From IMG/VR virus record IMGVR_UViG_3300010379_000034, positions 1 to 29,870 of that record: 29,870 bases of DNA; one strand, given 5' to 3'. A program made the position numbers and the translations under genes. Under the pieces are notes generated by a model. The model worked only from the letters and a program-made list of their open reading frames with translations. It was not told where the DNA came from and made no database searches. This DNA comes from a virus. Numbering within the stretch: position 1 is the stretch's first letter; each line of letters opens with the position of its first letter. Shown in pieces: positions 978-27,432 of this stretch.

Positions 978-1838
978 TCAGACACCCTTGTTGGGGTGGG
1001 TGTCGCCGAGCTTGGAGCCGACACGAGCCGCCAGTTCGGCGGCCTTCTCCGGCCCAAGTTCTTTGACGGCCTGTCCCTGCTTCGTGAGCGACCAGCCTTC
1101 CTTCGACCAGGGGTTTTCCTTGAGCGACGAGGAGCCGCCCCGGCCGCCGACTGCGCCGCCGCCGACACTTGCAGGCCACCAATGCGGTCGTGACTCCATC
1201 ATGTCCTTTGCCCACTCTTTCGGAGCGAGACCCGGAGTGATGCCGATGTCCGGTCGGGTGACGAGCTTGTTGTCAACGAGTTCGAACATGCGCTCGCCGA
1301 CCAGCACTGCATCCTCGATAGCCGAGGGGAGAACCTTCGCGTCCAAGAGTGCGGCGCGGATCGAGTTCTGGACTTTCTCAGCCTGCTTGTCCGCTTCGAG
1401 CTTGGTGACGATGGCCTCCTTCTCAGCGACCACCTTCTTCTGCGCCTCAAGCTGACGTGCGAGACCTTCCTTGTCTCGTTGCACCGGGCCGACCGCGCGA
1501 TTAACTGCCGCCTGAATGCGCTCGTCAACCGCAGCCTCGTCGATCTTGCCTTCCGCAGTCAGAGTTGTGAGTTTGGCTTGCGCCTCTTTCAACTCCTCAA
1601 GCATACCGGGAAGGGAGTCCGGGTCCACGTCGGCGAACTTCGCGAGCTTCTCCTTGGTTTCCTTGTGGGCTTCGCGCTCTTTGCGCGCGGCCTCTTGCAG
1701 CTTGTCGATGTCCTGTTGGGTTTTGATGCCCTCGACGCCGACTAGATCAAACTTGCCGTTACGCTCGACGTAAAGATCGCCGAAGCCTTCCGGAATTTCC
1801 TCGACAGTTTCATATGATGTCTTAAGTTTCGCGGGCAT
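978..1838 (-). CDS. Probable phage capsid scaffolding protein
   Basis: This 286-residue protein opens with TSYETVEEIPEGFGDLYVE and NGKFDLVGVEG, a beginning common in phage scaffold-like proteins. A long charged coiled-coil region follows (residues ~40-165, rich in Lys, Glu, Ala and Gln). A Gly-rich linker near residue 225 leads to a C-terminal NPWSKEGWSLTKQG motif (from residue 242). Scaffolds organise coat protein during head assembly and often bind it through a short C-terminal helix; the NPW tail may be that helix. A strong GAGGAGGG site precedes the start. No major capsid gene is recognisable downstream in the window, so it probably lies beyond the left edge. Confidence 0.75.
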   Translation of the reverse strand: MPAKLKTSYETVEEIPEGFGDLYVERNGKFDLVGVEGIKTQQDIDKLQEAARKEREAHKETKEKLAKFADVDPDSLPGMLEELKEAQAKLTTLTAEGKIDEAAVDERIQAAVNRAVGPVQRDKEGLARQLEAQKKVVAEKEAIVTKLEADKQAEKVQNSIRAALLDAKVLPSAIEDAVLVGERMFELVDNKLVTRPDIGITPGLAPKEWAKDMMESRPHWWPASVGGGAVGGRGGSSSLKENPWSKEGWSLTKQGQAVKELGPEKAAELAARVGSKLGDTHPNKGV

Positions 1839-2524: not shown

Positions 2525-2881
2525 CTATTCTCCGCGCCTTTTGCGGTGAATAGGGGGTCTAATCGCCGCAAGCCCGAGCCTCGCCACCCGCTGCCTAGTG
2601 ACCTCGGTCTCGCCATCGGTCCCATTCAGGTTAGCATTTCCGATAACTTTCCGGGCAATTTCGGCACCGTCCAGACCGCCGATCAAGCCGACCCGAAGTG
2701 TTTTGTCAATCCGGTTATGGTCCTCGCGTGCGATCTGCGCGGCGTGCGCGGCGTAGGACCTGCCAAGGAGTAGCTTGGTGCGCTGTTCGCGCGGGACTGG
2801 GGTTAGTGGAATCCTATGACCCTGCCGATGCCGGGCAAAGCCCTGCGCCTCATCGTCACCATCTTCGTAATCTGTGCTCAT
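2525..2881 (-). CDS. MuF-like head morphogenesis fragment
   Basis: This 118-residue protein overlaps the upstream gene by four bases (ATGA). Residues ~55-105 read RIDKTLRVGLIGGLDGAEI, then ARKVIG and GTDGETEVTRQRVARLG. That pattern (long helix, 'eIaR.v.G', 'tRq.i..l.r.ai') resembles the C-terminal half of the MuF/SPP1-gp7 minor head protein that binds the portal. The family usually has 250 or more residues, so this is either a stand-alone half or a reduced form. The C-terminus is basic (RPPIHRKRRGE). The assignment rests on pattern similarity only. Confidence 0.6.
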   Translation of the reverse strand: MSTDYEDGDDEAQGFARHRQGHRIPLTPVPREQRTKLLLGRSYAAHAAQIAREDHNRIDKTLRVGLIGGLDGAEIARKVIGNANLNGTDGETEVTRQRVARLGLAAIRPPIHRKRRGE

Positions 2882-8197: not shown

Positions 8198-9337
8198 CTA
8201 CAACCCCATTTTCACGTTGAAGGTTGTGCTGTTGAGATTCTTCCGGTCCGGACGCTTCTCGTACCAGCCCCGGCCGTTGACCCGATCTTGAACCGTCGTG
8301 AAGTATTCGTCATACATTGGACCGATACGCTCTAGCGAAAAACGTTCCGCCCACGCTCGGCAGTCCGCCGGTTTGATGTTTTTGATGTTGCGAGCAGCCC
8401 ACTCGAAATGCTCGAAAGTTCTGCACCGGTAACCGGTGACGCCGTGGACATTGTACTCAGCGAAGGCTCCCCAATCGGATGATATGACCGGAGTCCCCGA
8501 AAGCATAGCTTCAATTTGCGTGCCGCAGAACGGCTCCATGAATGTCGAGGGACACAACACCGCCCGAGCGCGTGTCAATAGCTGCTTGCGTTTGTGCGGA
8601 TCGACCACCCCGATGAGCTTGACGTTCTTGCTGCCACTGATGCGAACATTGTTATTGTCGAACTTTCCGGCCATGATGACTTGGGTTTTCAGCGCGTCGC
8701 CGATTTGTTGCGCGATATGTGCGCCTTTACCGTCGTTGACGCGCCCGAGGAACAGGAAATAATCTTGCTTCTGTGCGGAGTATTTGAATTCATCTAGATC
8801 GAAGTAGTTTGGAATCACCGCATCGTACCAAAAATCATTGCTGGCGAACTCGATCTTCTTTTGGCCTTGGAAGGCGTGCATGACGGCGTAAGATTCAAAA
8901 ATCCGATAAGGTGCGAAGCTGCCGTTGGGGTAGCCGATACCGGTCTCGACCGTCACCATGTCTGTGTGAAGGTCAGCTACCTTTTTGTGGGCGCCGCCGA
9001 AGGGGCAGAGCAAAAAATCTCCCGGCTGCTTTCGTTTCTGGATTTCTCCGATAGAGTTGGCGTAGAAGGCTTGATAAACCGGGTCCTCCCATTTGAATGT
9101 AGGCCAGCCACTCTTTCGCCAATCGTGTCCCGGATAGGATTTTTCAAGGTCGGCTTTTGAGGTAACCGCAACCATTTCGTCACAATCGACCTTCGAGTCC
9201 TCGTTGCCGTAATGGATCACATAATGCCCGCGCATCTTGAGAAGCCGACAGAGCCTTACGACTTTCTGCGTAAACGCGCAGGTCGAATACTCCGGGACGG
9301 AAACGGTGTGGGGTACGGCTAAAATGTGAAAACGCAC
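8198..9337 (-). CDS. GT4-family glycosyltransferase
   Basis: This is a 379-residue protein with a GT-B architecture. The C-terminal half shows KQDYFLFLGRVNDGKGAH (from 190), a VKLIGVV strand, LCPSTFMEPFCGTQIEAM with the E-x7-E motif (Glu268 and Glu276), then SGTPVISSDWGAFAE. These are the donor-binding features of retaining GT4 enzymes that use nucleotide sugars. The start is GTG, sharing one base with the TAG stop of the second glycosyltransferase gene, so the two are translationally coupled. The neighbouring collagen-like gene suggests fibre glycosylation, or modification of host surface sugars. Both substrates are unknown. Confidence 0.88.
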   Translation of the reverse strand: MRFHILAVPHTVSVPEYSTCAFTQKVVRLCRLLKMRGHYVIHYGNEDSKVDCDEMVAVTSKADLEKSYPGHDWRKSGWPTFKWEDPVYQAFYANSIGEIQKRKQPGDFLLCPFGGAHKKVADLHTDMVTVETGIGYPNGSFAPYRIFESYAVMHAFQGQKKIEFASNDFWYDAVIPNYFDLDEFKYSAQKQDYFLFLGRVNDGKGAHIAQQIGDALKTQVIMAGKFDNNNVRISGSKNVKLIGVVDPHKRKQLLTRARAVLCPSTFMEPFCGTQIEAMLSGTPVISSDWGAFAEYNVHGVTGYRCRTFEHFEWAARNIKNIKPADCRAWAERFSLERIGPMYDEYFTTVQDRVNGRGWYEKRPDRKNLNSTTFNVKMGL

Positions 9338-10085: not shown

Positions 10086-11882
10086 TCAACTCAGCCAGAA
10101 TGTCCAGGTTTCCGTAGTGGTGGATGCGGTTGCTGAACTCGGGGCGGTGGCTCCCGAGTTCGAGAAATACCCTACAGGGACAGTCGGACCCGCCGCTGTG
10201 TACAAAGGCGCCGTGAGTACGATGAAACCAAAGAGGTATATCGTGCCTGCGTTAAGAGTGACCGGAGAAGTGAGCGGAACTGTATTGATGCCGACCGTGA
10301 CCCCGGTCACCTGCGGACCTGTCGCTACCAAGGTAAGGGTCGATCCGGACACTGAGTAAATAGCTGGCGTCAGTTTCGCCGTAGTAGCCGCTGAAAATCC
10401 ATAGAATTTAATGTTGGAGGCGGTAAAGTTGGCGGGCATCAAAAACATTGCACCCCCAAAAGCATTAACGTTGAACTCGGTGGCGGTTGCTGTCGGTACA
10501 AAATTCAACTGACCAAAATACGTCACTCCTCCTCCGACTGCACCTGTGCCTCCGGTGCCGCCCGTACCGCCTGTGCCGCCTGCGCCGCCCGCGCTTCCGG
10601 CCGCGCCCGATCCGCCGGTTCCGCCTGTGCCGCCCGCGCCGCCTGCCGATCCCGCTGCACCCGATCCGCCTGTGCCGCCTGTACCGCCGGTTCCGCCCGC
10701 GCCACCCGACGCACCGGTTGCGCCAACGCCGCCAAAAACTGCAATTTCGCAAACATCCCCGTTCGTGAACGCTCCCGATTCGCTGACGTATGCTACCGAA
10801 ATTTCGACCCAGGTGTTTGAGCCTTCATCCGTGACCGTGCCACTTGTGAAGATGGCATATGCGCCCGGCGTCGTGATGTCACGAATCAAGATCGTAGAGC
10901 CTACCGGGATATTGTCGAGCCACGTTCTGACATTTGGGTTTCCAGCATCGTTCGTTGTATTCATAAGCGCCAGTACCGTGACGCTCGACCATGTTGCGTT
11001 ATTCGCAAGGAATGTACCGGTGCCCGGTGATGCAAGGGTTGTTGAACTTGAGTAGAGCCACGAGAACGCCGGAGGCAGTCCCGTCGCTCCCGCAGGACCA
11101 ATGCCTCCTGTACCGCCCTCGCCGCCCGCGCCTCCGGTGCCGCCTGTTCCGCCCGTTCCGCCCGTACCGCCCGCACTGCCGTCTGATCCCGCTGCGCCTG
11201 AGCCGCCCGTACCGCCGGTCCCGCCTGCCGGTCCGGCTTGACTTGATGTCGCGCCGGTCCCGCCGGTCCCGCCGGTTCCGCCTGTGCCGCCCGCACTGCC
11301 GTCTGATCCCGCTGCGCCCGATCCGCCCGTACCGCCCGTGCCGCCGGTTCCGCCTGTGCCGCCCGCGCTGCCGTCTGATCCCGCTGCGCCGGTTCCGCCT
11401 GTGCCGCCCGTGCCGCCCGTGCCGCCATTCGATCCCGCCGCGCCTGATCCGCCCGTACCGCCCGTGCCGCCTGTGCCGCCCGCCGGTCCGGCTTGACTTG
11501 ATGTCGCACCCGTCCCGCCCGTCCCGCCTGTGCCGCCCGCGCTCCCGGCCGCACCCGACCCGCCCGTGCCGCCCGTACCGCCTGTGCCGCCTGCCGGTCC
11601 GGCTGCGCCCGACCCGCCCGTACCACCCGAACCTCCAGAGATGCCACTCGCACCCGTAGCGCCACTCACGCCTACTACACTGCCGGTGCCGCCTGTGCCC
11701 CCCGTACCGCCGCTCGCGCCGGTCGCGCCGGTCGAGCCGATACCGCCGACAGATTCGACCGCCTCTTGAAGTGTGCACCACTCCGAAGTCGGACCTGACG
11801 GGTTCTCAATCTCAATCTTCGCCGTACTCGGCGGCGTTGGATCATGTGTCGGGATTTCGCCGATGGTATAGGGACCGGCCAT
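10086..11882 (-). CDS. Collagen-like fibre protein with two Gly-X-X shafts
   Basis: This is a 598-residue protein. A short N-terminal part ([18 protein letters not shown], then [13 protein letters not shown]) leads into Gly-X-X repeats to about residue 270, dominated by GGTGGTGG and [15 protein letters not shown] globular beta-rich domain follows (~275-385, [15 protein letters not shown] then [12 protein letters not shown]). A second Gly-X-X block runs to ~465, and a C-terminal beta-rich domain ([18 protein letters not shown]) could be the trimerising or receptor-binding end. Such proteins form trimeric fibres on phage heads or tails. A GGGGAG site precedes the start. The Gly-Thr and Gly-Ser richness gives many hydroxyls that the adjacent glycosyltransferases might modify. 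Confidence 0.88.
10530..10735 (-). repeat. Gly-X-X coding repeat, second shaft
   Basis: GC-rich 9-base-scale repeats of the type GGCGGCACNGGCGGNACN encode the C-terminal Gly-X-X block. It includes the 50-bp stretch identical to the left edge of the window. Confidence 0.85.
10648..10697. repeat. 50-bp exact repeat shared with 1-50
   Basis: Identical to bases 1-50 in the same orientation; it lies inside the second Gly-X-X block. Confidence 0.9.
11075..11755 (-). repeat. Gly-X-X coding repeat, first shaft
   Basis: This long tandem-like array encodes the first collagen-like block. Longer units recur within it: a stretch encoding [11 protein letters not shown] occurs three times (near 11170, 11290 and 11363). 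One encoding [10 protein letters not shown] occurs twice (near 11228 and 11484). The variants are close at the DNA level, which points to recent unit duplication or slippage. Confidence 0.85.
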
Positions 11883-11895
11883 TTACAACTCCCCT

Positions 11896-13569
11896 TTACG
11901 TGACGGCGGAGGCGCCCTTTTTGCCGACCTTCCGCTTGAGGGGGGTGGGCGAGCCGCGACGGTGAGGCGTTACAGGGACGTTCCCCGTACCGATGGTGTG
12001 GGCGGGCGGTTCGTTCGGCGCCGGAGCCGCCGGGGGTACGAAGTCCTCCGGGTTGCCTGGATCGGTGCTGACGCCGCCAGCCGTATCGAGGAAGGACTCG
12101 TCCACCGCGCCGACGTTGGCGCCGTGCACCATCATACCGACCAGGGTCTCGCTTTCCTGCTCGATCTGGTCGTTCTCCTCGTCGAAGTCCATGTCCGTCA
12201 TGTCGTTCAGTTGCATCATGCGATGCAGACTCTTGAGCGACAGCGGCAGACCGAGTTGCTTAGCCTGCATGAAGGCGAGTAAGCTGGCGCCAGCCACGTT
12301 GGCATCCGCGAAGTCTGTCTGCGGCGACACCGAAACCTCATTCGGGTCCTCACCGACCCACTGCGCCGCGTACTTGAGAACTTGCTCAAGCGCCGCGCCG
12401 GCTGCGACCGCGATTTGCTGAATGGTGGTCGTGCGAGCCGCCACGCGGATGCGCAGTGCCTCGCCGCTCGCGCCCCTCGCGGAGCCGACATCCATGAACT
12501 GGACGCCGAAGCTCGCGGCTTGTTCTGAATCGTTCTTGATGGCCTGGCGCATTTCGCCGAGACCAGACGAACTGACGCCGATGTATTTTGCGTCACCGCC
12601 GATGCGCAGGTCGATCACACCCTTGTTGCCAATGCGGAGTTGTTGGTTCTCGTCTACGTCGGATACGTTGCCACCGATGATAACGAGAGTTTGCTGACCC
12701 TGATAGTGCAGAGTCGAGCGATAATCTGCTTCGCCGCGATAGATCGAGAGTGCGAGAGTGCTGAGTCCGAGGAGCGGCGGCTCGTCCGGCTCGGGCACAA
12801 GGTCGTTGGCACCGCAGAACACGAACGGAATATCGGTGAGCGCACGTCCGGCGATTGATGGCATAATGAAGTAGTCCGGGATCGGCATACTCGTGTCATT
12901 AACTTTTACGCACACCTGATAGGGTGCGTCGAGCGGCGGACGGGTCCAGCCGCTTTCCAAGCTCTCCGGCGTGCCGCGCGTCAGGATGCGGTGCTTACGC
13001 TCTGCGACCCATGTGAAGCCTTCGCGTTGGAAGCCTGACTCGTCGAGCACGACAAGATCGAGAATGTTCCGTCCCTCGTCGCGCCGACCGGCATCCCAAT
13101 TGATGATCCGCTCGGGATCGTAGAAAGCGATGTAAGGAAGCGCATTGTATGGGTCAACGCCCGTGGGCGCATCGACCAGCAAACCGCAGCGACCTTTGAC
13201 CAACTGTGCTTCGTTGATCCGGCGAAGCAACATCTGCATTCCCTCGCCCTGAATCGTTGCTTTGTCCATCATCGGAGCGAGACGTTGCGGCAGTTTGATA
13301 ACCGCCGGTTTCATGTGCATTATTCCTAACATCGCTTTTACCGCATCGCGAACGACATCATGGAAATATGCCCGAGTAAGGTAGGCTTCGTAGTCTTTCC
13401 AGCCGGGAGAGGACGGGGTGGTCATCCCGTCCTGGATCATGGCTTCGGAGGGAGGCAGGTAGTCTAGGCGCTTCTTCTTGATGGCTCGCTCACCCGCATA
13501 GGTGTCGCCCATCTGAATCCACTCGCCAGTCTTACTCACATATTGGGGGTGCTTGTCGTCGATAGCCAT
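11896..13569 (-). CDS. Phage portal protein, DUF4055-like
   Basis: This 557-residue protein has features of the DUF4055 portal family: a start with VSKTGEWIQMGDTYAGE, a Tyr-rich YEAYLTRAYFHDVVRDAVKA segment, then RRINEAQLVKGRCGLLVDAP, an aromatic IAFYDPERIINWD and a helical part with LHYQGQQTLVIIGG. The portal ring forms the vertex through which DNA enters and leaves the head. Length and position two genes downstream of the large terminase fit. The ~90-residue C-terminal tail is Pro/Ala-rich and basic and is probably a flexible extension. GGAGGG lies upstream of the ATG. Confidence 0.87.
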   Translation of the reverse strand: MAIDDKHPQYVSKTGEWIQMGDTYAGERAIKKKRLDYLPPSEAMIQDGMTTPSSPGWKDYEAYLTRAYFHDVVRDAVKAMLGIMHMKPAVIKLPQRLAPMMDKATIQGEGMQMLLRRINEAQLVKGRCGLLVDAPTGVDPYNALPYIAFYDPERIINWDAGRRDEGRNILDLVVLDESGFQREGFTWVAERKHRILTRGTPESLESGWTRPPLDAPYQVCVKVNDTSMPIPDYFIMPSIAGRALTDIPFVFCGANDLVPEPDEPPLLGLSTLALSIYRGEADYRSTLHYQGQQTLVIIGGNVSDVDENQQLRIGNKGVIDLRIGGDAKYIGVSSSGLGEMRQAIKNDSEQAASFGVQFMDVGSARGASGEALRIRVAARTTTIQQIAVAAGAALEQVLKYAAQWVGEDPNEVSVSPQTDFADANVAGASLLAFMQAKQLGLPLSLKSLHRMMQLNDMTDMDFDEENDQIEQESETLVGMMVHGANVGAVDESFLDTAGGVSTDPGNPEDFVPPAAPAPNEPPAHTIGTGNVPVTPHRRGSPTPLKRKVGKKGASAVT

Positions 13570-14238: not shown

Positions 14239-15897
14239 TTAGGCTCGTCGTGTCAAGTTTCCTGGCGGCTCGTAGTAGCGGAGCCGGTATCGCGTCGCAT
14301 CTGCACAGTGATCCTCCGAAGGCTCCATAACCTCGTCCATGTCGTCCTCGTCCCGTTGCAGTTGCGGAACGGTCCGAATCCAGTGTCGGCAATTCATGCA
14401 AACGAACAGACCGGGGTATTCGCGGAAGCCGCCGGGCGCCAGAGTCGCCGCCAGCTTTTGCCGCATCAATTGCCAGCCTTGCTTGCGCGATCCGGGTGCC
14501 TTGTCGGCCATTTCCCAAATAATGCCCCGGAACCGGGCACCGTTGACGACGACAGGCTTTTCCATTTCATTAGCGATGCTCGGGCGTCCGTCTGTCTCAG
14601 CCCAAATCTGAGTGTCGGCGGGTCCGCGTCGAATCCGAGACAGCCAGCCACCGCCATTGGGGTCCTGGTAGCGCCAGCCACGGTCTATTTCGTACTGGAT
14701 TATGCGCCTGACAATTTCGACGGGCGGTGCGTTTACCCCCTCGTCTTTGTGACCGCTCCACCCGTACAGTTCGCCGACGATAAACAGGTCGCCGCGCATA
14801 GTACGCATAGTCTTGCCGTCCGGGAGCGCCAAATCCTCGCCGTTGCTCTTTGCGAACCACAAGCAAGTATATGGCTTGGAGGAGCCATGATCGTATGCAC
14901 GCGTGATGTGCCAGTTCGCCGGTACTACAAACTCCGGCACCAAGATGCTATCCCGGTGCGTTGCCCAAATATCGCCGAACATGCCGCCTGCGGTGATGTC
15001 CCAATCGCCATCCCGCCACGCTTTCAACACTGATTCGCTTGGCGCGCTGGCGAGAAGGCGGTCGAGGTAGTGCGGGTCCACTTTGTTCAGAATCTTGTTC
15101 TCGCTGATGTGTCCGAAGATCGCGCGGCGCGAAGGGAGCTTGTGACCCTGTTCGTCTCGCGCGTCATCAATGAGCGGTCCAAGAATTTCGCCGGACTTGC
15201 GGTCACTGATATGGAACCGATCCTTGATTTCGTTGTGGCTAGGACCCCACGGATTAGTGGTGCTCCGAATCTTGCGTGGAATGCCCGGCACCGAACTGCG
15301 CAAGCACGAGAACATCAAGCCATAGCAGGTCAAGTCCGGCCACGTAATAAGCTCCTCGAAACCGATAAACGTGAACTCCATTCCGAGGTAGCGCCGGAAG
15401 TCCGTCTGGTCGGCAAGATGATCGAACACGAGCGTCTCACCGTCCGGAAACTCCCAACGATATTTGATTTCGTTGTAGAACGCCTTGGGCCAAAGACGCG
15501 GAAACCAACGTTTGCTCTTGGCGATCACTTCCTTCAACATCGGATGCGATTGGCGCAGAATGATGCCTTTGAGGGAGGGTCCCCATCCCTTGCCGACATC
15601 CATGGCGAAGGACATGAGGAGGGCGTCAGTTTTGCCACAGCCGGCACGCGTGCCGGCGAACAGGACTTCCGTTTCGGTTGATTCCAGGAACGCGGCTTGC
15701 GATCCTTTTTGCGGCGCCCACACGACTTCGACTTCTTGACCGTCATCGTCAATAATGATTGGAATATACTCGCCGTGTCGGAGTTTCCACCTGTGAACGG
15801 TCGGAATGCCGCGCGGCTTCAAGAAAAATGATCCGGTGTTTTTGTCGAAGGTAAACAACTTCGGCTTGTCGTCTTTGCTGCCTTTGTCCTTACTCAT
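14239..15897 (-). CDS. terL: Terminase large subunit
   Basis: This 552-residue protein has the two-part plan of a packaging motor. The ATPase half has Walker A AGTRAGCGKT (81-90), a Walker B strand with catalytic acidic residues FTFIGFEE (175-182) and a coupling-type motif RSTTNP (211-216). The C-terminal half carries nuclease-like acidic motifs, AYDHGSSKPYTCLWF and, near the end, EDHCADATRYRLRY. It pumps DNA into the prohead and cuts it, working with the portal and small subunit encoded nearby. GGAG lies 9 bases before the ATG. The usual length is 450-600 residues, so it looks intact. Confidence 0.93.
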   Translation of the reverse strand: MSKDKGSKDDKPKLFTFDKNTGSFFLKPRGIPTVHRWKLRHGEYIPIIIDDDGQEVEVVWAPQKGSQAAFLESTETEVLFAGTRAGCGKTDALLMSFAMDVGKGWGPSLKGIILRQSHPMLKEVIAKSKRWFPRLWPKAFYNEIKYRWEFPDGETLVFDHLADQTDFRRYLGMEFTFIGFEELITWPDLTCYGLMFSCLRSSVPGIPRKIRSTTNPWGPSHNEIKDRFHISDRKSGEILGPLIDDARDEQGHKLPSRRAIFGHISENKILNKVDPHYLDRLLASAPSESVLKAWRDGDWDITAGGMFGDIWATHRDSILVPEFVVPANWHITRAYDHGSSKPYTCLWFAKSNGEDLALPDGKTMRTMRGDLFIVGELYGWSGHKDEGVNAPPVEIVRRIIQYEIDRGWRYQDPNGGGWLSRIRRGPADTQIWAETDGRPSIANEMEKPVVVNGARFRGIIWEMADKAPGSRKQGWQLMRQKLAATLAPGGFREYPGLFVCMNCRHWIRTVPQLQRDEDDMDEVMEPSEDHCADATRYRLRYYEPPGNLTRRA

Positions 15898-15988: not shown

Positions 15989-16813
15989 TTAAGCGGTTTC
16001 AGGGGTGGCTTGGGATGACCGATTTGGCATCTGCAAGTCGTCATCAGATTCCCGCGCCGCCTCGTCAACTTCTTCGAACTCTACATCCTCGATTTCATGG
16101 TGTTTCATTTGATACGATGCCTCCAACTCTTTCGAGGATTTTGTCGCGCCGACGACGAGCACACCACCTACCTTGTGTTCGTGCGCAACTTGGATTCGAT
16201 TGCCATAACTGTCAGGACGCTTGCGGGCGAGCAACCAACGAGTCATTTCGGGGTCAAGCCAAGGGACCGTTTGCGGAACTGGTTTGCCGTCCGCATCCAA
16301 AAGATACGCTTCCTCGCCTCTAAGACCGAGCTTGATTAAATCGGGGTCAATTTCAAAGATGACGCCTTGCTGATTAGTGAGGATTTTGCGCTCGATACCA
16401 GTCGCGAGCTTTAGCGCATGGTCCTCGACTATATCCGTTCCCGCGTCCCACGCTTCCGCAAATAAAATATGAAACCGCTCGGTGCGACCGTCATCGACTG
16501 GTAAATCAAAACCATCGCCGGGATGCCCTTTTTTGCTGAGCTTAAGCCAATATCCTAGCTTGTACCGGCTGACACCACTGCCCCTGCAAATAGATGCAAG
16601 ATGCGGCCATGTTGCGGCGGCGCGAAGGACTTTTAGCATTGCTTTGGGATTGCGGATAGCAAGTTCACGAGCGGCATCGCCCATAATGCTGTCGCTGTGC
16701 ATTAGTTCTCTTTCGAGTGCCCGACCGCCCCGGTTTTTACGATTCGGACTTACGCGACCCTTCGCCAGCCCTATTGCTTCCGCCTCTGATGCGGGTTGTC
16801 CCTTGCGGCTCAT
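15989..16813 (-). CDS. Probable terminase small subunit
   Basis: This is a 274-residue protein encoded just before the large terminase. The basic N-terminus (GLAKGRVSPNRKNRGGRAL) and a segment PHLASICRGSGVSRYKLGYWLK (split here as two helices around residues 90-111) resemble a helix-turn-helix. The middle holds EAWDAGTDIVEDHALKLATG and LARKRPDSYGNRI, patterns seen in phage small terminases or terminase-linked DNA-binding proteins. The C-terminus is acidic (EIEDVEFEEVDEAARESDDD). Small terminases recognise the packaging site and form rings. The call rests on position and HTH-like sequence. Confidence 0.65.
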   Translation of the reverse strand: MSRKGQPASEAEAIGLAKGRVSPNRKNRGGRALERELMHSDSIMGDAARELAIRNPKAMLKVLRAAATWPHLASICRGSGVSRYKLGYWLKLSKKGHPGDGFDLPVDDGRTERFHILFAEAWDAGTDIVEDHALKLATGIERKILTNQQGVIFEIDPDLIKLGLRGEEAYLLDADGKPVPQTVPWLDPEMTRWLLARKRPDSYGNRIQVAHEHKVGGVLVVGATKSSKELEASYQMKHHEIEDVEFEEVDEAARESDDDLQMPNRSSQATPETA

Positions 16814-21499: not shown

Positions 21500-21530
21500 G
21501 ACCGGCTTGTGATCCGCTGACTACCGGCAT
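21324..21530 (-). CDS. 68-residue His-rich basic protein
   Basis: The start shares one base with the upstream TGA (TGATG). The product is basic, with LTAKGRAKLRAHGKKPVDP in the middle and a His-rich end (LPAHHHGIHAATHGKS) that could bind metal. The KVAHEFLHASKGMKFG part looks folded. No family is recognised. Confidence 0.6.
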   Translation of the reverse strand: MPVVSGSQAGLMGMSLTAKGRAKLRAHGKKPVDPKVAHEFLHASKGMKFGQLPAHHHGIHAATHGKSL

Positions 21531-21832
21531 CAGAGCACCCGATTTTTGCCCTTGTTGAACGATTGCAGCCGAGCGTCATCATCCGGGCCGTCGTTGTCGA
21601 GAGACTGGTCCTTCATGCCCCACGCAGTCTTGACCGCACTGGACTTCGGATGCCCTTGCGCCAAACAGGCTGAGGCGTCTGCGTCACTTGCGCAGACTTG
21701 ACCGCCGTCACTCGGACCGTTCATTTTCGGGTCTTTCGCCATAACCCCCTCCGCACGTTGAGAAACCCGAGCCTTGTGAAGCTCTACCTGTGAGGCGCGC
21801 GAGGCGTCGGGTTGCTGAATTTGATTCTTCAT
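21530..21832 (-). CDS. Small protein with LAQGHPKS and WGMK motifs
   Basis: This 100-residue protein starts behind GGTGG. It joins two of the reused motifs: DADASACLAQGHPKSSAVK is followed directly by TAWGMKDQSLDND, as if the two form one unit of about 35 residues. Equivalent parts occur separately in neighbours. The N-terminal third (QQPDASRASQVELHKARV) is helical. An internal start at Met31 is possible. The function is unknown. Confidence 0.7.
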   Translation of the reverse strand: MKNQIQQPDASRASQVELHKARVSQRAEGVMAKDPKMNGPSDGGQVCASDADASACLAQGHPKSSAVKTAWGMKDQSLDNDGPDDDARLQSFNKGKNRVL

Positions 21833-21875: not shown

Positions 21876-21899
21876 TCAAGCCTTCGCCGTGTCCTTCAT
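21876..21899 (-). pseudogene. Degenerate copy of the MKDAKGHGS leader
   Basis: Directly after the stop at 21899 (sharing TGATG) is ATGAAGGACACGGCGAAGG, which ends after seven codons. It matches the leader DNA if about ten bases after ATGAAGGA are deleted. It looks like the broken start of a lost family member. Confidence 0.35.
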
Positions 21900-22150
21900 C
21901 ACGCCTTCTCCCTGGACGGCAAATTGAACATCGCGCGCACACCCTCGCGCACCTGGGCATTCGACGCTCCCTTATCACGCCAGTCAGCGATCTTCTGCGC
22001 ACGCTCACTGTCCGACATCGGCACACCTTGCCGAATGCCCTCTTGATGTGCGGCGGGTGCCCGGATCATATTGACCAATCCCTTGACGGCGGTGACTTGA
22101 CTGCTCACTCCGCCATGCGAGTCGCTGCCATGTCCTTTTGCATCCTTCAT
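21899..22150 (-). CDS. Leader-tagged small protein (MKDAKGHGSDSHGG)
   Basis: This 83-residue protein has the shared leader, GGAGG upstream and a four-base overlap with the previous tagged gene. After the leader come VSSQVTAVKGLVNMI, the second family motif AAHQEGIRQGVP and a helical end (DSERAQKIADWRDKGASN, then AQVREGVRAMF). The helical end resembles a small DNA- or protein-binding bundle. No known family is recognised. Confidence 0.75.
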   Translation of the reverse strand: MKDAKGHGSDSHGGVSSQVTAVKGLVNMIRAPAAHQEGIRQGVPMSDSERAQKIADWRDKGASNAQVREGVRAMFNLPSREKA

Positions 22151-22308
22151 GACTTCCTCCGGGATAACCGAAAACCGTTTTCGTGCGGTGATGGCGACGA
22201 AAGAAACGTCCAGGCGCGCCGAGCTTCTTTTAGGCTAGTCGATCCAATCGTTGTCTTGGGATCGTTGCCGAAGCGGCGAGTACCGCCGCGGCCCTTAGCG
22301 TCTTTCAT
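22147..22308 (-). CDS. Variant leader-tagged peptide (MKDAKGRGG)
   Basis: This 53-codon ORF overlaps the Arr-like gene at its start and the next tagged gene at its end, each by four bases (ATGA). The leader is changed after Gly6 (MKDAKGRGGTRRFG), so it lacks the HGS part. The body (IGSTSLKEARRAWTFLSS, then a basic tail) is unrelated to the others. The double coupling argues that it is real. Confidence 0.6.
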   Translation of the reverse strand: MKDAKGRGGTRRFGNDPKTTIGSTSLKEARRAWTFLSSPSPHENGFRLSRRKS

Positions 22309-22655
22309 TTTGCTCCCCTGACTTCACTAACAACTCGTAGAGGAAACTCTGACGCCCATTCCGAATCTCGTGCATCACGCCGATGTCCGAACGGTCCGGT
22401 AGGGCGTACCTCATAGACATGAGTCCCGTAGCCACGTGCGCCTTTGTAGATGTCCGATCCTTCGGGTTGTGTAGTCATGTAAACATGCGTCATTGACCGA
22501 ACAAAGTTTCCGGGGTGCCCCGGCTCAATCAATGCGCCGGAAGCGAACTGTCGAGCGGACCCATGATAGAAACGCTCCTCTTGACCGATCTCATTCGGAT
22601 ACCGCTCGTTCCGCAACGATCCCAATGAATGGATCGGTCGGGCGTTCGGTAACAT
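22305..22655 (-). CDS. Arr-like ADP-ribosyltransferase
   Basis: From residue 29 the protein reads FYHGSARQFASGALIEPG, then THVYMTT, GYGTHVYEVRPTGPFG and EFPLRVVSEV. These match, in order, the conserved blocks of rifampin ADP-ribosyltransferase (Arr): the HG start with catalytic-type His31, the Tyr59 strand, the PTGP turn and the final 'PLrivgev' strand. Arr moves ADP-ribose from NAD to its target. The acidic pair usually after PTGP is replaced by HRRDARD, so Asp94 or Asp97 would have to serve. It overlaps a leader-tagged ORF by 65 bases in another frame. As a phage protein its target may not be rifampin. Confidence 0.75.
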   Translation of the reverse strand: MLPNARPIHSLGSLRNERYPNEIGQEERFYHGSARQFASGALIEPGHPGNFVRSMTHVYMTTQPEGSDIYKGARGYGTHVYEVRPTGPFGHRRDARDSEWASEFPLRVVSEVRGAK

Positions 22656-22746
22656 CGGGTAGTGTCAGCGGCGTCTTACCTACCGCATCTGTTCCTGCGG
22701 CATGCGCGCCGCGCGGATCGGAGCCATGTCCTTTTGCATCTTTCAT
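22591..22746 (-). CDS. Leader-tagged ORF joined to the Arr-like frame
   Basis: This 51-codon ORF has the full leader (MKDAKGHGSDPRG) and a second family motif (AHAAGTDAVG), then ends at TGA inside the Arr-like gene. A +1 shift at that TGA would continue straight into the Arr-like frame (AVSE then EIGQEERFYHG) and give a fusion of about 146 residues, close to the size of other tagged proteins. Either a programmed shift, a recent one-base loss or a sequencing error could explain it. The membrane peptide gene upstream overlaps it by four bases. Confidence 0.65.
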   Translation of the reverse strand: MKDAKGHGSDPRGAHAAGTDAVGKTPLTLPDVTERPTDPFIGIVAERAVSE

Positions 22747-22851: not shown

Positions 22852-23052
22852 TCACGTCGAGAAATCTTGCCCAAGCTTCCAATCGGGGACCACCTGAGCA
22901 TGTCCGGTCTGACCTTCATAGAAATGTCGAAGTGTCTTGCGCCCGAGTTTCGTCAAGCCTTTGAACGCCGACTTCGGGATATTATTCACACCGGTTTGAT
23001 GCGCGACTAAACCGCCGCGCGGATTTGAGCCGTGGCCCTTGGCGTCTTTCAT
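22852..23052 (-). CDS. Leader-tagged small protein (MKDAKGHGSNPRGG)
   Basis: This 66-residue protein begins at 23052 behind GAGGAAG, with the full leader and the second motif AHQTGVNNIP. The body (SAFKGLTKLGRKTLRHFYEG) is basic and helical, and the end is ordinary (TGHAQVVPDWKLGQD). It overlaps the upstream ORF by four bases. The function is unknown. Confidence 0.75.
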   Translation of the reverse strand: MKDAKGHGSNPRGGLVAHQTGVNNIPKSAFKGLTKLGRKTLRHFYEGQTGHAQVVPDWKLGQDFST

Positions 23053-23169: not shown

Positions 23170-23538
23170 TTACCCCCGACGAGTTGGATTTGAAATATTC
23201 GGAGCGTCCCAACTATTCGCTGATTTACGTTCAACCCACCCCTTTGCCGATTGCACAGAGCCAAGAAGTCCCCAACTTCCCGATTTCCCTGCTCCGGTGT
23301 TGAAATCTTTGTGAAGCTGCCCGTAGTAATACCCCTTTGGTACCGGACCGCCGGACAATGGCGGCTTCTCGGTTCCAGGCTTAAATACCGAAGCGATAGG
23401 CGGCTCGTTACCCGAAGCTAGTCGGTGAACCCCATCTAATCCTTTTGCCCATGTATAAGTTTTTGGTTGCCCAATTTGATCGACGCCCTCTGCGTGAGCG
23501 CCTTTCGGGTCGGACCCGTGTCCCTTGGCGTCTTTCAT
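23170..23538 (-). CDS. Leader-tagged protein (MKDAKGHGSDPKGA), 122 residues
   Basis: The leader is followed by the second motif AHAEGVDQIGQ. The body holds aromatic and Gly-rich segments (KTYTWAKGLDGVHRLASG, then PKGYYYGQLHKDFNTGAG and SGSWGLLGSVQSAKGWV) and looks folded, mainly beta. GGGGG lies upstream of the ATG. No family is recognised. Confidence 0.75.
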   Translation of the reverse strand: MKDAKGHGSDPKGAHAEGVDQIGQPKTYTWAKGLDGVHRLASGNEPPIASVFKPGTEKPPLSGGPVPKGYYYGQLHKDFNTGAGKSGSWGLLGSVQSAKGWVERKSANSWDAPNISNPTRRG

Positions 23539-23996: not shown

Positions 23997-24335
23997 TCAA
24001 ATCCTCTTGCTGTGAAGATACGAAACAGCCCGAACTTTCTTGACGCCTTCGAGCGCCTGCGCAGCCAGCCGATGATGACCGTTATTTAGATACCACTTCT
24101 TGTTCGAGTCTTGGACGCCGTAAAGGTCCCGGTTCTCGGGCGTCAGTTCACTAACGCGGATCGGTTTTATTTTCTTGCCCATGCGAATGCTGTTTTGCAT
24201 TCGTTGAACTTTCTCGACATCGGCGTAATCTTGTAATGGATAGCCGGTGCTCGCAATCTCGCGGATCGGGATCATTATCGGGGTCAGCTTCTTAGTCGCT
24301 TCCTTGACCCCCTGTTGGTGCGCTGGACCACTCAT
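23997..24335 (-). CDS. ParB/sulfiredoxin-fold protein
   Basis: This 112-residue protein starts with MSGPAHQQGVKEAT, a short piece also found inside the tagged protein at 26436-26891 (ISGPAHQAGVQQVG). It then reads IPIREIASTGYPLQDYADVE, KIKPIRVSEL and WYLNNGHHRLAAQALEG, ending with a VRAVSYL strand. The GHHR turn and the order of strands are those of ParB N-terminal or sulfiredoxin-like domains, which bind or hydrolyse nucleotides such as CTP. Phage versions are often nucleases or regulators. GAGGA lies upstream, and the gene overlaps the previous one by four bases. Confidence 0.7.
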   Translation of the reverse strand: MSGPAHQQGVKEATKKLTPIMIPIREIASTGYPLQDYADVEKVQRMQNSIRMGKKIKPIRVSELTPENRDLYGVQDSNKKWYLNNGHHRLAAQALEGVKKVRAVSYLHSKRI

Positions 24336-24607
24336 GTCATCCTCTTGTCCGGTTCGATCTTTGTCCCTACGGTTTCGTGTGCGTTCCGAAAACGCAAACT
24401 ATGCGGTGTCAAGTGCGGGTATCCAGTACGACCACCCTCCATTCCCTTGTGGGTTTTAACCGGGACTGATTTGGGATGACCCTGAGCAAGCGCGCTCGCT
24501 ACTTCGGTGGGCGTGAGTTCGTTTATGTCGCGCGGAGTCGGTGCGACCGCATGGGGCGCCGGGTTGAATGCAACAATCTTTTCAAGTGGCGATACTTTCG
24601 GCGTCAT
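24332..24607 (-). CDS. Small protein with central LAQGHPKS motif
   Basis: This 91-residue protein has an N-terminal half with Pro and Ala, then TEVASALAQGHPKSVPVK followed by THKGMEGG, the best example of this reused motif. The end (HSLRFRNAHETVGTK) is basic. It overlaps genes on both sides by four bases, placing it in one translational unit with the ParB-fold and GNAT-like proteins. Confidence 0.7.
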   Translation of the reverse strand: MTPKVSPLEKIVAFNPAPHAVAPTPRDINELTPTEVASALAQGHPKSVPVKTHKGMEGGRTGYPHLTPHSLRFRNAHETVGTKIEPDKRMT

Positions 24608-25083
24608 TTCGCACCTTTGAGCTTCATGAACACAACGTCAGGTGTGCCGTATTTCTTCGTGTCCCACTGCGGAGGCGCCTGCTTGGGATCGAACGGAGCG
24701 CGACCGGTCTCCTCGAATCCATGCTGCTTGTAGATTTCCGGGAGCACCGGAGCGAAACAGTCCAACGTCTTGCCGCCCCGAGCTTTGGCTTCCTCTACCG
24801 CCGCGCCACCCGCACCCTTGACACCGCTGTTATTGAAAACGCTCTGGATGTCGCCGGTCGGACTGACCGCCCCGCCGACCGTACCCGCCGGATTGATGAA
24901 CAACTTGAATTGTGCAAGGTCCTCCGGAGCGTGTGGTGTGAACATGCCTGGACGGCTCGACTGAGCACGCGCGGCTAAAAACTCGGTCGGCGATGCCGAC
25001 CGAAACTTCTGCCCGATTTGGTTCACGCCGTCTTGATGTGAGCCGCCGCGTGGGTCGGAGCCATGACCTTTGGCATCTTTCAT
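24604..25083 (-). CDS. Leader-tagged GNAT-like acetyltransferase
   Basis: This is a 159-residue protein. After the leader (MKDAKGHGSDPRGG) and second motif (SHQDGVNQIGQ), residues ~35-155 read FKLFINPAGTVGGAVSP, then GVKGAGGAAVEEAKARGG, PEIYKQHGFEETGRAPF and GTPDVVFMKL. This order (a strand pair, a Gly-rich turn with helix, the 'Y...GF' segment and a last strand) fits a GNAT fold of the kind seen in phage polyvalent proteins. Such enzymes acetylate proteins or small molecules using acetyl-CoA. The Gly-rich loop is not a textbook Q/R-x-x-G-x-G/A. GGGAG precedes the ATG. Confidence 0.65.
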   Translation of the reverse strand: MKDAKGHGSDPRGGSHQDGVNQIGQKFRSASPTEFLAARAQSSRPGMFTPHAPEDLAQFKLFINPAGTVGGAVSPTGDIQSVFNNSGVKGAGGAAVEEAKARGGKTLDCFAPVLPEIYKQHGFEETGRAPFDPKQAPPQWDTKKYGTPDVVFMKLKGAK

Positions 25084-25449: not shown

Positions 25450-25698
25450 TTATGTTATCGCGCAAGCGTTGGGCACGCTGCCGTTATCAGGAGTGACACG
25501 AAGGAACTGACCCGAGTCGTAGATAATCCGACAGCCGCTTTGTGGCGTCGGCAACGTACCAGAGTGCAATGGCACCGGAGCCGACTTTGCCCCGCCGCCC
25601 GCAAGAGATTGAGCGGCTTGTTGATCGCTTACGCCGCTGCCCTTCTTCGCCGCTTCGGCGGCGCGAGCCGCCTGTCGAGCCGCGTCTGACCAAGCCAT
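25450..25698 (-). CDS. Small protein with GAKSAPVPLHSG motif
   Basis: This 82-residue protein is a paralogue of the one at 19036-19278. The Ala/Arg-rich N-terminal helix (WSDAARQAARAAEAAKKG) is followed by SLAGGGAKSAPVPLHSG. It then has its own end, GCRIIYDSGQFLRVTP. GGGGAAG lies upstream. The shared helix plus short motif suggests binding to one common partner. Confidence 0.7.
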   Translation of the reverse strand: MAWSDAARQAARAAEAAKKGSGVSDQQAAQSLAGGGAKSAPVPLHSGTLPTPQSGCRIIYDSGQFLRVTPDNGSVPNACAIT

Positions 25699-25701
25699 TG
25701 T

Positions 25702-25848
25702 TTACTTCCCCTGCCTCTTGAGGCGATTGATTTCCCGCTTCCCGCTGGCGAAGCCACGAGCTTCGGCTGCGTGATCGCGCGGAGCGCCGTACTTTTCACG
25801 GAAACCGGATACCGCGTCGCGCCTGCGCGAGCGCGGCGCTCGCCGCAT
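25702..25848 (-). CDS. 48-residue basic peptide overlapping a tagged gene
   Basis: This frame overlaps the 3' end of the tagged gene at 25796-25990 by 53 bases. The best start is the ATG at 25848 with GAGG nine bases before. The product is basic (FREKYGAPRDHAAEARGF, then SGKREINRLKRQGK). It is also exactly +1 to the tagged frame at its TGA stop, so a fusion to the leader protein is possible. Confidence 0.5.
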   Translation of the reverse strand: MRRAPRSRRRDAVSGFREKYGAPRDHAAEARGFASGKREINRLKRQGK

Positions 25849-25990
25849 TCTGGTCATCCTCATTCCAGGCAGTGCGTCCAGCCGCCCGCATACTCTTGTT
25901 GCCAGCGTCCATGCCAACGCCAGTCGCCATTCCCGGCGTCATCGTCGGACCGCCGCGTGAGTTTGAGCCGTGCCCTTTGGCATCCTTCAT
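25796..25990 (-). CDS. Leader-tagged small protein (MKDAKGHGSNSRGG)
   Basis: This 64-residue protein has a GGGAG site upstream. After the leader come Met/Gly-rich residues (PTMTPGMATGVGMDAG) and RTAWNEDDQNAASAALAQAR. The latter resembles both the WGMK and the ALAQGHPKS motifs of neighbours. It lacks the HQxGV motif. It may extend by a +1 shift into the ORF at 25702. Confidence 0.7.
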   Translation of the reverse strand: MKDAKGHGSNSRGGPTMTPGMATGVGMDAGNKSMRAAGRTAWNEDDQNAASAALAQARRGIRFP

Positions 25991-25991
25991 G

Positions 25992-26429
25992 TCACGCTCC
26001 CGCTGATTTCAAAAACCGCCCCGAATTGAAGTTTGCGTTGCTGCGACCCAACTCGCCCGCGAAGTGCGTGGCTACTGAGCCGCGTAATGTGGATGGCAAG
26101 TTGGCGATAGCTCCGGCAACCGCCTCATAGTGGCGGCTCTGCATCCCAGGAGCCTTACTTTGTGTGCGACCCATGTCGCCGGTCATCGCTGCGGTCTGGA
26201 ACTTGCCTGCGTTGAAATTCGGATTCGTACCCTTCAAGGCATCCGCGAAATGCTGCGCAATGTTGCCTTTCGCATACGAAATATCTGCGGGGAGCCGACT
26301 AATCGCTCCCGCGATGGCTTCGTACTGGCGGCGCTGCATAGCGACCGGACGGCCAACTTGCTGCACGCCCTCTGAGTGCGCACCGGCTCCGCCGTGCGCT
26401 TCGCTGCCGTGTCCCTTGGCATCCTTCAT
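25992..26429 (-). CDS. Leader-tagged protein with duplicated ~50-residue module
   Basis: After MKDAKGHGSEAHGG and GAHSEGVQQVG, this 145-residue protein has two copies of one module: QRRQYEAIAGAISRLP...IAQHFADALKGTNPNFNAGKF (residues ~32-78) and QSRHYEAVAGAIANLP...VATHFAGELGRSNANFNSGRF (~96-140). The pattern 'r..YeaiA.ai...va..fa..l...NpnFn..rF' is that of a small helical domain often found singly in phage proteins. AGGGG precedes the ATG. Its role is unknown, but two copies suggest two binding faces. Confidence 0.75.
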   Translation of the reverse strand: MKDAKGHGSEAHGGAGAHSEGVQQVGRPVAMQRRQYEAIAGAISRLPADISYAKGNIAQHFADALKGTNPNFNAGKFQTAAMTGDMGRTQSKAPGMQSRHYEAVAGAIANLPSTLRGSVATHFAGELGRSNANFNSGRFLKSAGA

Positions 26430-26435
26430 GGCACT

Positions 26436-26891
26436 TTACCCCTTGTAGGTGCGGCTCGATCCGCTCTTAATGTCGTCGCGCTCGTCGGCTTCCCAATGCG
26501 CAGCCGCTTCCTTGCGCACAGCCGGAGTGAACATCTTATGCCAAGGCTGGTCGGCACTGCCGAACTGCTTGGCGTAAGACTGCGCAGCGCGGTCGGCGTG
26601 ATAGCCCCACAGCTTTGTCGCCAACGTCGGGTCATAGACGCCCTTGTCCATTTTCTTGCCGAGGTTGTCGCGGATCGGCTGTGTTGACTGCCGATTAAGA
26701 TTGGCGTCGTTGTCGGCAAAGAGCCGCAACTCGCGTGATTCTGGACCTTCCGGCGGCAACGCCGGTCGCTGACCGACTTGCTGCACACCGGCTTGGTGTG
26801 CCGGTCCGGAAATGTAAGCGGCATTTGACTGAACCACGGGGAGATTTCCGCCACCGCGCGCGTCCGAACCGTGTCCTTTTGCATCTTTCAT
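26436..26891 (-). CDS. Leader-tagged protein with phage helical module, 151 residues
   Basis: After the leader, an ISGPAHQAGVQQVG motif (residues ~27-40) matches the start of the ParB-fold protein. The rest reads ESRELRLFADNDANLNRQ, IRDNLGKKMDKGVYDPTLA, LWGYHADRAAQSYAKQFG and FTPAVRKEAAAHWEADE. This is a helical arrangement seen in small phage proteins of unknown role ('Nd..ly.....i..nl..k...g.yd...a..l'). It overlaps the next tagged gene by four bases. Confidence 0.75.
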   Translation of the reverse strand: MKDAKGHGSDARGGGNLPVVQSNAAYISGPAHQAGVQQVGQRPALPPEGPESRELRLFADNDANLNRQSTQPIRDNLGKKMDKGVYDPTLATKLWGYHADRAAQSYAKQFGSADQPWHKMFTPAVRKEAAAHWEADERDDIKSGSSRTYKG

Positions 26892-27145
26892 TTTAGCCTC
26901 CCGCCGCCTCGATCAAACGAGACGCCCTGTAGATTTCGAATTCCTTGCCCAAGCGCCGCTTGGTGTCCCGGACCTGTGCCGGACATCCGCGCCCGCAGGT
27001 CGGCAATTATCCGCATCGTGTCGATGTTGTCCGAGGCCATTGGCTTCCCGGCGCCCGCAGGCGAGCGAATGCCAGGACGTGACGCTTCCTCAATGGTCGG
27101 CATCCGATTACGAGGATCGCTGCCGTGTCCTTTTGCGTCTTTCAT
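26888..27145 (-). CDS. Leader-tagged small protein (MKDAKGHGSDPRNR)
   Basis: This 85-residue protein has GGAGG upstream and four-base overlaps on both sides. The leader lacks the final GG. A helical DNIDTMRIIADLRARMSG segment is followed by GPGHQAALGQGIRNLQG, a looser version of the second family motif. The end is basic and Gly-rich. No family is recognised. Confidence 0.72.
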   Translation of the reverse strand: MKDAKGHGSDPRNRMPTIEEASRPGIRSPAGAGKPMASDNIDTMRIIADLRARMSGTGPGHQAALGQGIRNLQGVSFDRGGGRLK

Positions 27146-27432
27146 GACTTCCTCCGTCCAGGCGTGCCACGCGGGAGTGCGAGGTTGCGCGCGCGGTCCA
27201 ATTGATCCTGAGCCGCCGCAAAGCTCGATCCGAGCGGCGAGATATACGACTTGGGATGTGCCTGCCCGAGCGCGTTCGCCGCCATTCGATCCGAGACCGT
27301 GGTCACAGGAAAGTGCGACTGATCGACCATCTTGCCGCGAATGACCCGATCCCGCGCTGCGGCGGTCAAGCCGGTGGGTGCGATAGAAGTGTTCCCGCGC
27401 GCGTCCGAACCGTGTCCTTTTGCGTCCTTCAT
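27142..27432 (-). CDS. Leader-tagged protein carrying a second reused motif
   Basis: This is the first leader gene in the direction of transcription (96 residues, GGAG upstream). After MKDAKGHGSDARGN it has AARDRVIRGKMVDQSHFP and DRMAANALGQAHPKSYISP. The latter is a relative of LAQGHPKSxxVK, so this protein joins the leader family and the motif family. It ends in a basic helix (FAAAQDQLDRARNLALP). Confidence 0.72.
   Translation of the reverse strand: MKDAKGHGSDARGNTSIAPTGLTAAARDRVIRGKMVDQSHFPVTTVSDRMAANALGQAHPKSYISPLGSSFAAAQDQLDRARNLALPRGTPGRRKS

Follow-up and report, generated by a model that had tools for sequence, protein, structure and literature searches.

The window analysed here is the whole 29,870-nucleotide stretch, positions 1 to 29,870 of IMG/VR virus record IMGVR_UViG_3300010379_000034, and the features collected in Table 1 all lie on its minus strand. 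Among them is an ORF resembling rifampin ADP-ribosyltransferase (Arr), set in a cluster of small ORFs most of which share the same N-terminal tag. The peptide MKDAKGHGS begins 10 ORFs of the window, all on the minus strand, against an expectation of 0.00 exact matches. The ORF directly upstream of the Arr ORF, in another frame, begins MKDAKGHGSDPRGAHAAGTDAVG at 22746. A second shared motif, AxxLxxGxPKSxxVxxH/M, occurs in both tagged and untagged ORFs of the cluster (21530-21832, 24332-24607, 25450-25698 and 27142-27432, all minus strand) and in relatives mostly takes the form PKSAPVPVHDSM.

Table 1. Features of the tagged cluster and of the head-gene region in the window, by position
Feature	Position	Strand	Remarks
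Head scaffolding protein	978..1838	(-)	phrog_206, 3.7e-36
Head-morphogenesis-like ORF	2525..2881	(-)	phrog_241, E=2.7e-4
Portal	11896..13569	(-)	phrog_145, DUF4055
Terminase large subunit (TerL)	14239..15897	(-)	phrog_979
Terminase small subunit (TerS)	15989..16813	(-)	weak phrog_1482; position conserved in relatives
Tagged ORF MKDAKGHGSDSHGG...	21899..22150	(-)	
Next ORF, degenerate tag MKDAKGRGGTRRFGND	22147..22308	(-)	ATG overlaps Arr stop
Arr-like ADP-ribosyltransferase ORF, 116 aa	22305..22655	(-)	H31, Y59 kept; Asp84 column = R92; D94 invariant in subfamily
Tag ORF, 51 aa, MKDAKGHGSDPRGAHAAGTDAVGKTPLTLPDVTERPTDPFIG..., probably once the N-terminus of the Arr protein	22591..22746	(-)	in-frame fusion in L004
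14-nt length difference from L004, placing tag and Arr in different frames	22623..22624	(-)	DNA alignment
Hydrophobic ORF, 30 aa	22743..22835	(-)	stop overlaps tag ORF ATG (ATGA)
Tagged ORF MKDAKGHGSNPRGG...	22852..23052	(-)	
Tagged ORF MKDAKGHGSDPKGAHAEGVDQIG...	23170..23538	(-)	
Untagged ParB-like ORF within the cluster	23997..24335	(-)	weak: phrog_4715 E=6e-4
Tagged ORF, phrog_2563 body	24604..25083	(-)	E=3.6e-16
Tagged ORF MKDAKGHGSNSRGG...	25796..25990	(-)	
Tagged ORF, repeated body	25992..26429	(-)	
Tagged ORF, body family shared with L004:3114-3554	26436..26891	(-)	
Tagged ORF MKDAKGHGSDPRNR...	26888..27145	(-)	
Tagged ORF also containing the second motif (GQAHPKS)	27142..27432	(-)	

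In every contig containing both tags and the TerS-TerL-portal set, the tags lie upstream of that set and on the same strand, with 42 tags on the portal strand and none on the opposite strand in the portal set; the scaffold gene follows further downstream. The nearest portals from cultured phages, about 47% identical, are those of Roseobacter phage RDJL3 and Pseudomonas phage NP1, which carry a Queuovirinae-like head module and share the TerS-TerL-portal order. In the stretches of these two that were read, however, no cluster of tags precedes the terminase, unlike in the window's phage.

The head region of the window contains three further genes of note. Directly after the portal lies a 598-aa protein consisting largely of collagen-like GxxGGTGGTG repeats, with a weak tail-fibre match (10086-11882, minus strand), and a glycosyltransferase kept in some relatives (8198-9337, minus strand; phrog_3408, 6.5e-120) sits between the portal and scaffold genes. 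The C-terminus of a 565-aa protein (2878-4575, minus strand) matches phrog_3170 (4e-15), a profile also matched by nine tagged proteins, in contig L055 at a different part of the profile.

The Arr-like domain and its acid loop

The sequence blocks on which the earlier note based its assignment (FYHGS, IEPG, THVYMTT, PTGPFG and PLRVVSEV) are all present in the order it gave, and the likeness to Arr is above chance. The Pfam profile PF12120 (Arr-ms) matches the ORF at 31.3 bits (E=2.3e-7, cut-off 25 bits), five of five related records exceed the same cut-off, and a PDB profile search with the ORF and three relatives returned nothing but three Arr chains, led by ARR-2 (E=1e-4). The score against the NCBIfam equivalog rifampin_ARR stays below threshold (E=1.1e-5, 25 of the 130 bits required). 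As judged from these profiles, the homology is real but distant, and the ORF is predicted to encode a genuine Arr-family ADP-ribosyltransferase (ART) domain.

As in Arr-ms and ARR-2, the elements [Y/F]HG[S/T], xNF loop, HxY and P[T]GP follow one another in order, and the NAD-side motifs are represented in the ORF by YHGS, GNF and HVYMT. The relatives in contigs L004 (81% identical in the first search), L005 (60%) and L006 (46%) conserve Y30-H31-G32, N50-F51, H57-V-Y59 and KGARGYG..HVYEV. The critical residues of Arr enzymes are H19, Y49 and D84, and rifampin is bound by loop 87-95 and helix 126-133 (PMC6092378, PMC8492726), with D84 being 100% conserved among tested Arr enzymes (PMC8492726). 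The equivalents of the first two, H31 and Y59, are invariant in four relatives; the earlier note would have taken a loss of this His/Tyr pair in related phages as telling against its proposal.

The third position is different. Alignment with arr-2 and with the Arr domains of giant phage proteins places Arg92 in the D84 column, with the closest Asp, D94, two residues further on, in keeping with the earlier remark on altered acidic residues behind PTGP. Most other Arr domains of L005 retain an acid at this column (GPVEPDP, GPVEDDS), whereas the four-member subfamily to which the ORF belongs has an invariant GHRxDA....WA instead, including D94. Because the Asp84 column is lost, catalytic activity is uncertain; the NAD half appears intact and the acid loop rebuilt, and catalysis is possible with D94 as the sole nearby conserved acid.

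In the same alignment the loop of RIF site 1 (87-95) is shortened and helix alpha-2 of site 2 (126-133) is absent, and little of the chain follows the last strand, which precludes a rifampin pocket of the Arr kind. Hence, despite the Pfam match, the possibility that this is a phage-borne rifampin (rifamycin) resistance gene is very small, being disfavoured by the replaced or missing D84, RIF loop and helix alpha-2 (PMC6092378, PMC8492726), with the shortfall against the NCBIfam equivalog pointing the same way. Of the original proposal, the Arr-type ART domain and its setting among phage late genes are supported, as is the comparison with T4 Alt taken up below; rifampin as the target is not supported.

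Separation of the tag and Arr frames

In L004 the tag peptide and the Arr domain form a single 149-aa in-frame protein (L004:5872-6318), whereas in the window they are out of frame. In the DNA alignment the tag half and the Arr half are both conserved relative to L004, and the 14-nt difference falls exactly between them. The same junction is present in a 44-kb IMG/VR contig that is 99.99% identical to the window and in a contig from another metagenome (99.95%). A sequencing or assembly error can be excluded as the cause of the split, since near-identical contigs from two metagenomes agree on the junction and the indel measures 14 nt.

The ATG at 22655 lacks a Shine-Dalgarno sequence, unlike nearly all tagged ORFs, and was probably not the original start of the Arr gene, which appears once to have begun at the tag ORF (22746). 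Between the window and L004 the Arr frame has a dN of 0.11 and a dS of 1.56; the resulting dN/dS of about 0.07 spans both lineages and cannot date the indel. Together, the L004 alignment, the shared junction, the missing Shine-Dalgarno sequence and the dN/dS suggest that the tag-Arr fusion is probably the ancestral state. The Arr copy in the window's phage is probably untagged or damaged, that is, recently broken or made untagged.

We give even odds to the copy being a decaying pseudogene, in which case the 14-nt deletion would have stopped production of the tagged enzyme and left the open Arr frame as a recent relic. The loss of the frame relative to L004, the recurrence of the split in two metagenomes and the bare ATG all favour decay, as do the degenerate tag (KGRGG) on the next ORF and the shortness of the window's tag ORF, which is one of only 9 among 230 closed tagged ORFs to fall below 62 aa. 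On the other side, the Arr frame contains no stop or damaged motif (H31, Y59 and GHRRDA are intact), and the dN/dS quoted above is low, subject to the same limit on dating. Such decay would concern the window's copy only and would be compatible with tagged cargo elsewhere in the group.

Alternatively, the split could be functional, with ribosomes shifting +1 within the 22591-22670 overlap and so joining tag and Arr in some products and the level of tagged enzyme being set by recoding. The frames do overlap, by 65 nt, and each matches L004 on its own side of the indel. However, there is no recognisable slippery site or internal Shine-Dalgarno sequence beside the TGA, the shift is fully accounted for by the 14-nt indel, and the layout is seen in no relative, which leaves frameshifting very improbable.

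Distribution of the tag and its cargo

Pattern scans of viral contigs (53, 70 and 42 stretches, sampled by K and L patterns) yielded 235 distinct tagged ORFs with a median length of 126 aa, in about 48 uncultivated phage contig groups assigned by hand. The core of the tag is KD-x-x-GHGS, with K or L commonest in the fourth place, and the wider consensus reads M(A)KDx[K/L]GHGS[D/N/E]xRGG..(A)H..GV..(I/V)G. Contig L167, whose long upstream stretch without KGHGS had made it a candidate tagless relative, proved to carry seven or more tags of DALGHGS/DPLGHGS type and was discarded as such. No match to the tag or the Arr domain was obtained in annotated phages, by a tblastn search that is insensitive for short peptides, and we found no paper on the tag. 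The tagged proteins form a large set that is apparently undescribed in the literature. An attempt to read the host from genome contigs was also set aside, as only two Hyphomicrobiales-labelled MAGs (L062, L089) have start-positioned tags and neither has this TerL.

Among 97 tags of KDAKGHGS type, codon positions 1 and 2 hardly vary except between the two serine codon families, third positions range over 0.5-1.7 bits, and 83 different 24-mers occur. Free third positions around a fixed peptide indicate selection on the tag as a peptide, and exclude a DNA- or RNA-level repeat as its origin. The fourth residue is more homogeneous within genomes than in shuffled sets (0.82 vs 0.50; 0 of 5000 shuffles as high), in a sample drawn by K and L patterns. 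Such homogeneity would be expected with a co-varying partner but could equally arise by duplication or gene conversion. We claim it only as a statistical tendency, having dropped strictly concerted change because K and L tags often co-occur.

The bodies behind the tag are diverse. Ninety-seven of them fall into about 45 blast clusters, the largest of which is joined by shared motifs, and recognisable domains include ART-PolyVal (8.7e-14), GNAT (7e-8), ParB_N and Arr; additional tagged ORFs have YHG-type ART-like starts, as judged by eye. ART-PolyVal, GNAT, ParB-like and Arr-like domains are constituents of polyvalent proteins, which are thought to be injected (PMC5512222). A protein of Synechococcus phage S-CBP42 annotated as "internal virion protein" is a weak match (E=3e-5) to the commonest cargo family, which has 14 members. 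Separately, the C-terminal motif GYNPDAVNxAIASSNRSGRRIGGKEASAIHRLLKGR is common to otherwise different proteins in L167 (3020-4033, plus strand), L011 and L055.

Seven Arr domains in L005 and five in L006 lie within giant frames of about 1300-2000 aa. A single giant multi-ART protein of L005 contains distinct domains matched by the tagged Arr of L004 and by the tagged ART of L039, which argues for a single domain pool whose members are either fused or tagged. In both contigs (84,944 and 166,488 bases) the giant frames also contain other YHGT-type ART-like stretches. A MuF fusion was considered and rejected, as searches found no PF04233 in the phage records analysed and no PF05133 in L005 and L006.

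The tag could, in principle, be a docking or regulatory peptide acting in the infected cell, recognised by one phage partner or serving as a stability signal, with no part in packaging. Its recognition as peptide and not as DNA would fit, and within-genome homogeneity of the fourth residue would follow from co-evolution with any partner. That homogeneity may, however, stem from duplication or gene conversion, under the same K and L sampling, and the head-operon position and polyvalent-type cargo point to the virion. We therefore regard a purely intracellular docking role as rather unlikely.

A candidate capsid address

Position, cargo and selection together point to a capsid address. We propose that the Arr-like ORF arose as one piece of tagged cargo, among many small late proteins in which the same N-terminal peptide precedes unrelated effector domains, and that it corresponds to the catalytic domain of a mono-ADP-ribosyltransferase with the Arr fold. 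During head assembly the tag would bind one shared structural partner (scaffold, portal or inner capsid), and the tagged proteins would be packaged and then injected with the DNA, as are the internal proteins and Alt of T4 by virtue of their capsid-targeting sequence. Once injected, the Arr-like domain would act, with NAD+ as co-substrate, on some macromolecule of the host rather than on rifampin, to the benefit of takeover or counter-defence. As a whole we put this explanation at about 55%, and within it we infer packaging, injection, catalytic activity and target.

The closest precedent is phage T4, whose varied internal proteins have nothing in common but a capsid-targeting sequence (PMC3012670) and which packages and injects Alt. 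Phage ARTs are often found in head-gene contexts (PMC9503650). In T4 as in the present phages, a brief N-terminal peptide is shared by very different effectors, an ART is among the cargo and the genes stand in a head-assembly context (PMC3012670); here, the otherwise unrelated cargo amounts to the 235 tagged ORFs and about 45 body clusters described above. The earlier comparison with T4 Alt gains from L004, where the Arr domain is fused to the shared tag within the cluster that immediately precedes terminase and portal. The likeness drawn here is one of layout. The peptide is KDxxGHGS, a putative packaging signal, the tagged phages have a siphovirus-type (Nipunavirus/RDJL-like) portal, and there are up to about 12 tagged genes per genome, mostly in one island.

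Polyvalent proteins (Iyer et al. 2017) draw on the same pool of ART-PolyVal, GNAT, ParB-like and Arr-like domains in a phage head context. They combine several effector domains in one polypeptide, whereas each domain here forms a separate small tagged protein, and multidomain giants are confined to L005 and L006. Tentatively, and at a little short of an even bet, this uncultivated group of soil and sediment phages may use KDxxGHGS as a plug-in address tag for rapidly changing injected effectors, a modular alternative to giant polyvalent proteins in which the recogniser of the tag co-varies between genomes.

The four-member Arr-like subfamily, whose ARTs lack a drug pocket and have an altered catalytic-acid loop, bears on the function of the Arr fold beyond rifampin. 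If the tag is indeed a capsid address, then every tagged ORF becomes a likely injected effector, giving about 235 proteins, most of them without known function. One short motif would then suffice to search out many candidates for counter-defence and takeover functions, and foreign proteins could be loaded into a siphovirus-type head by means of the tag.
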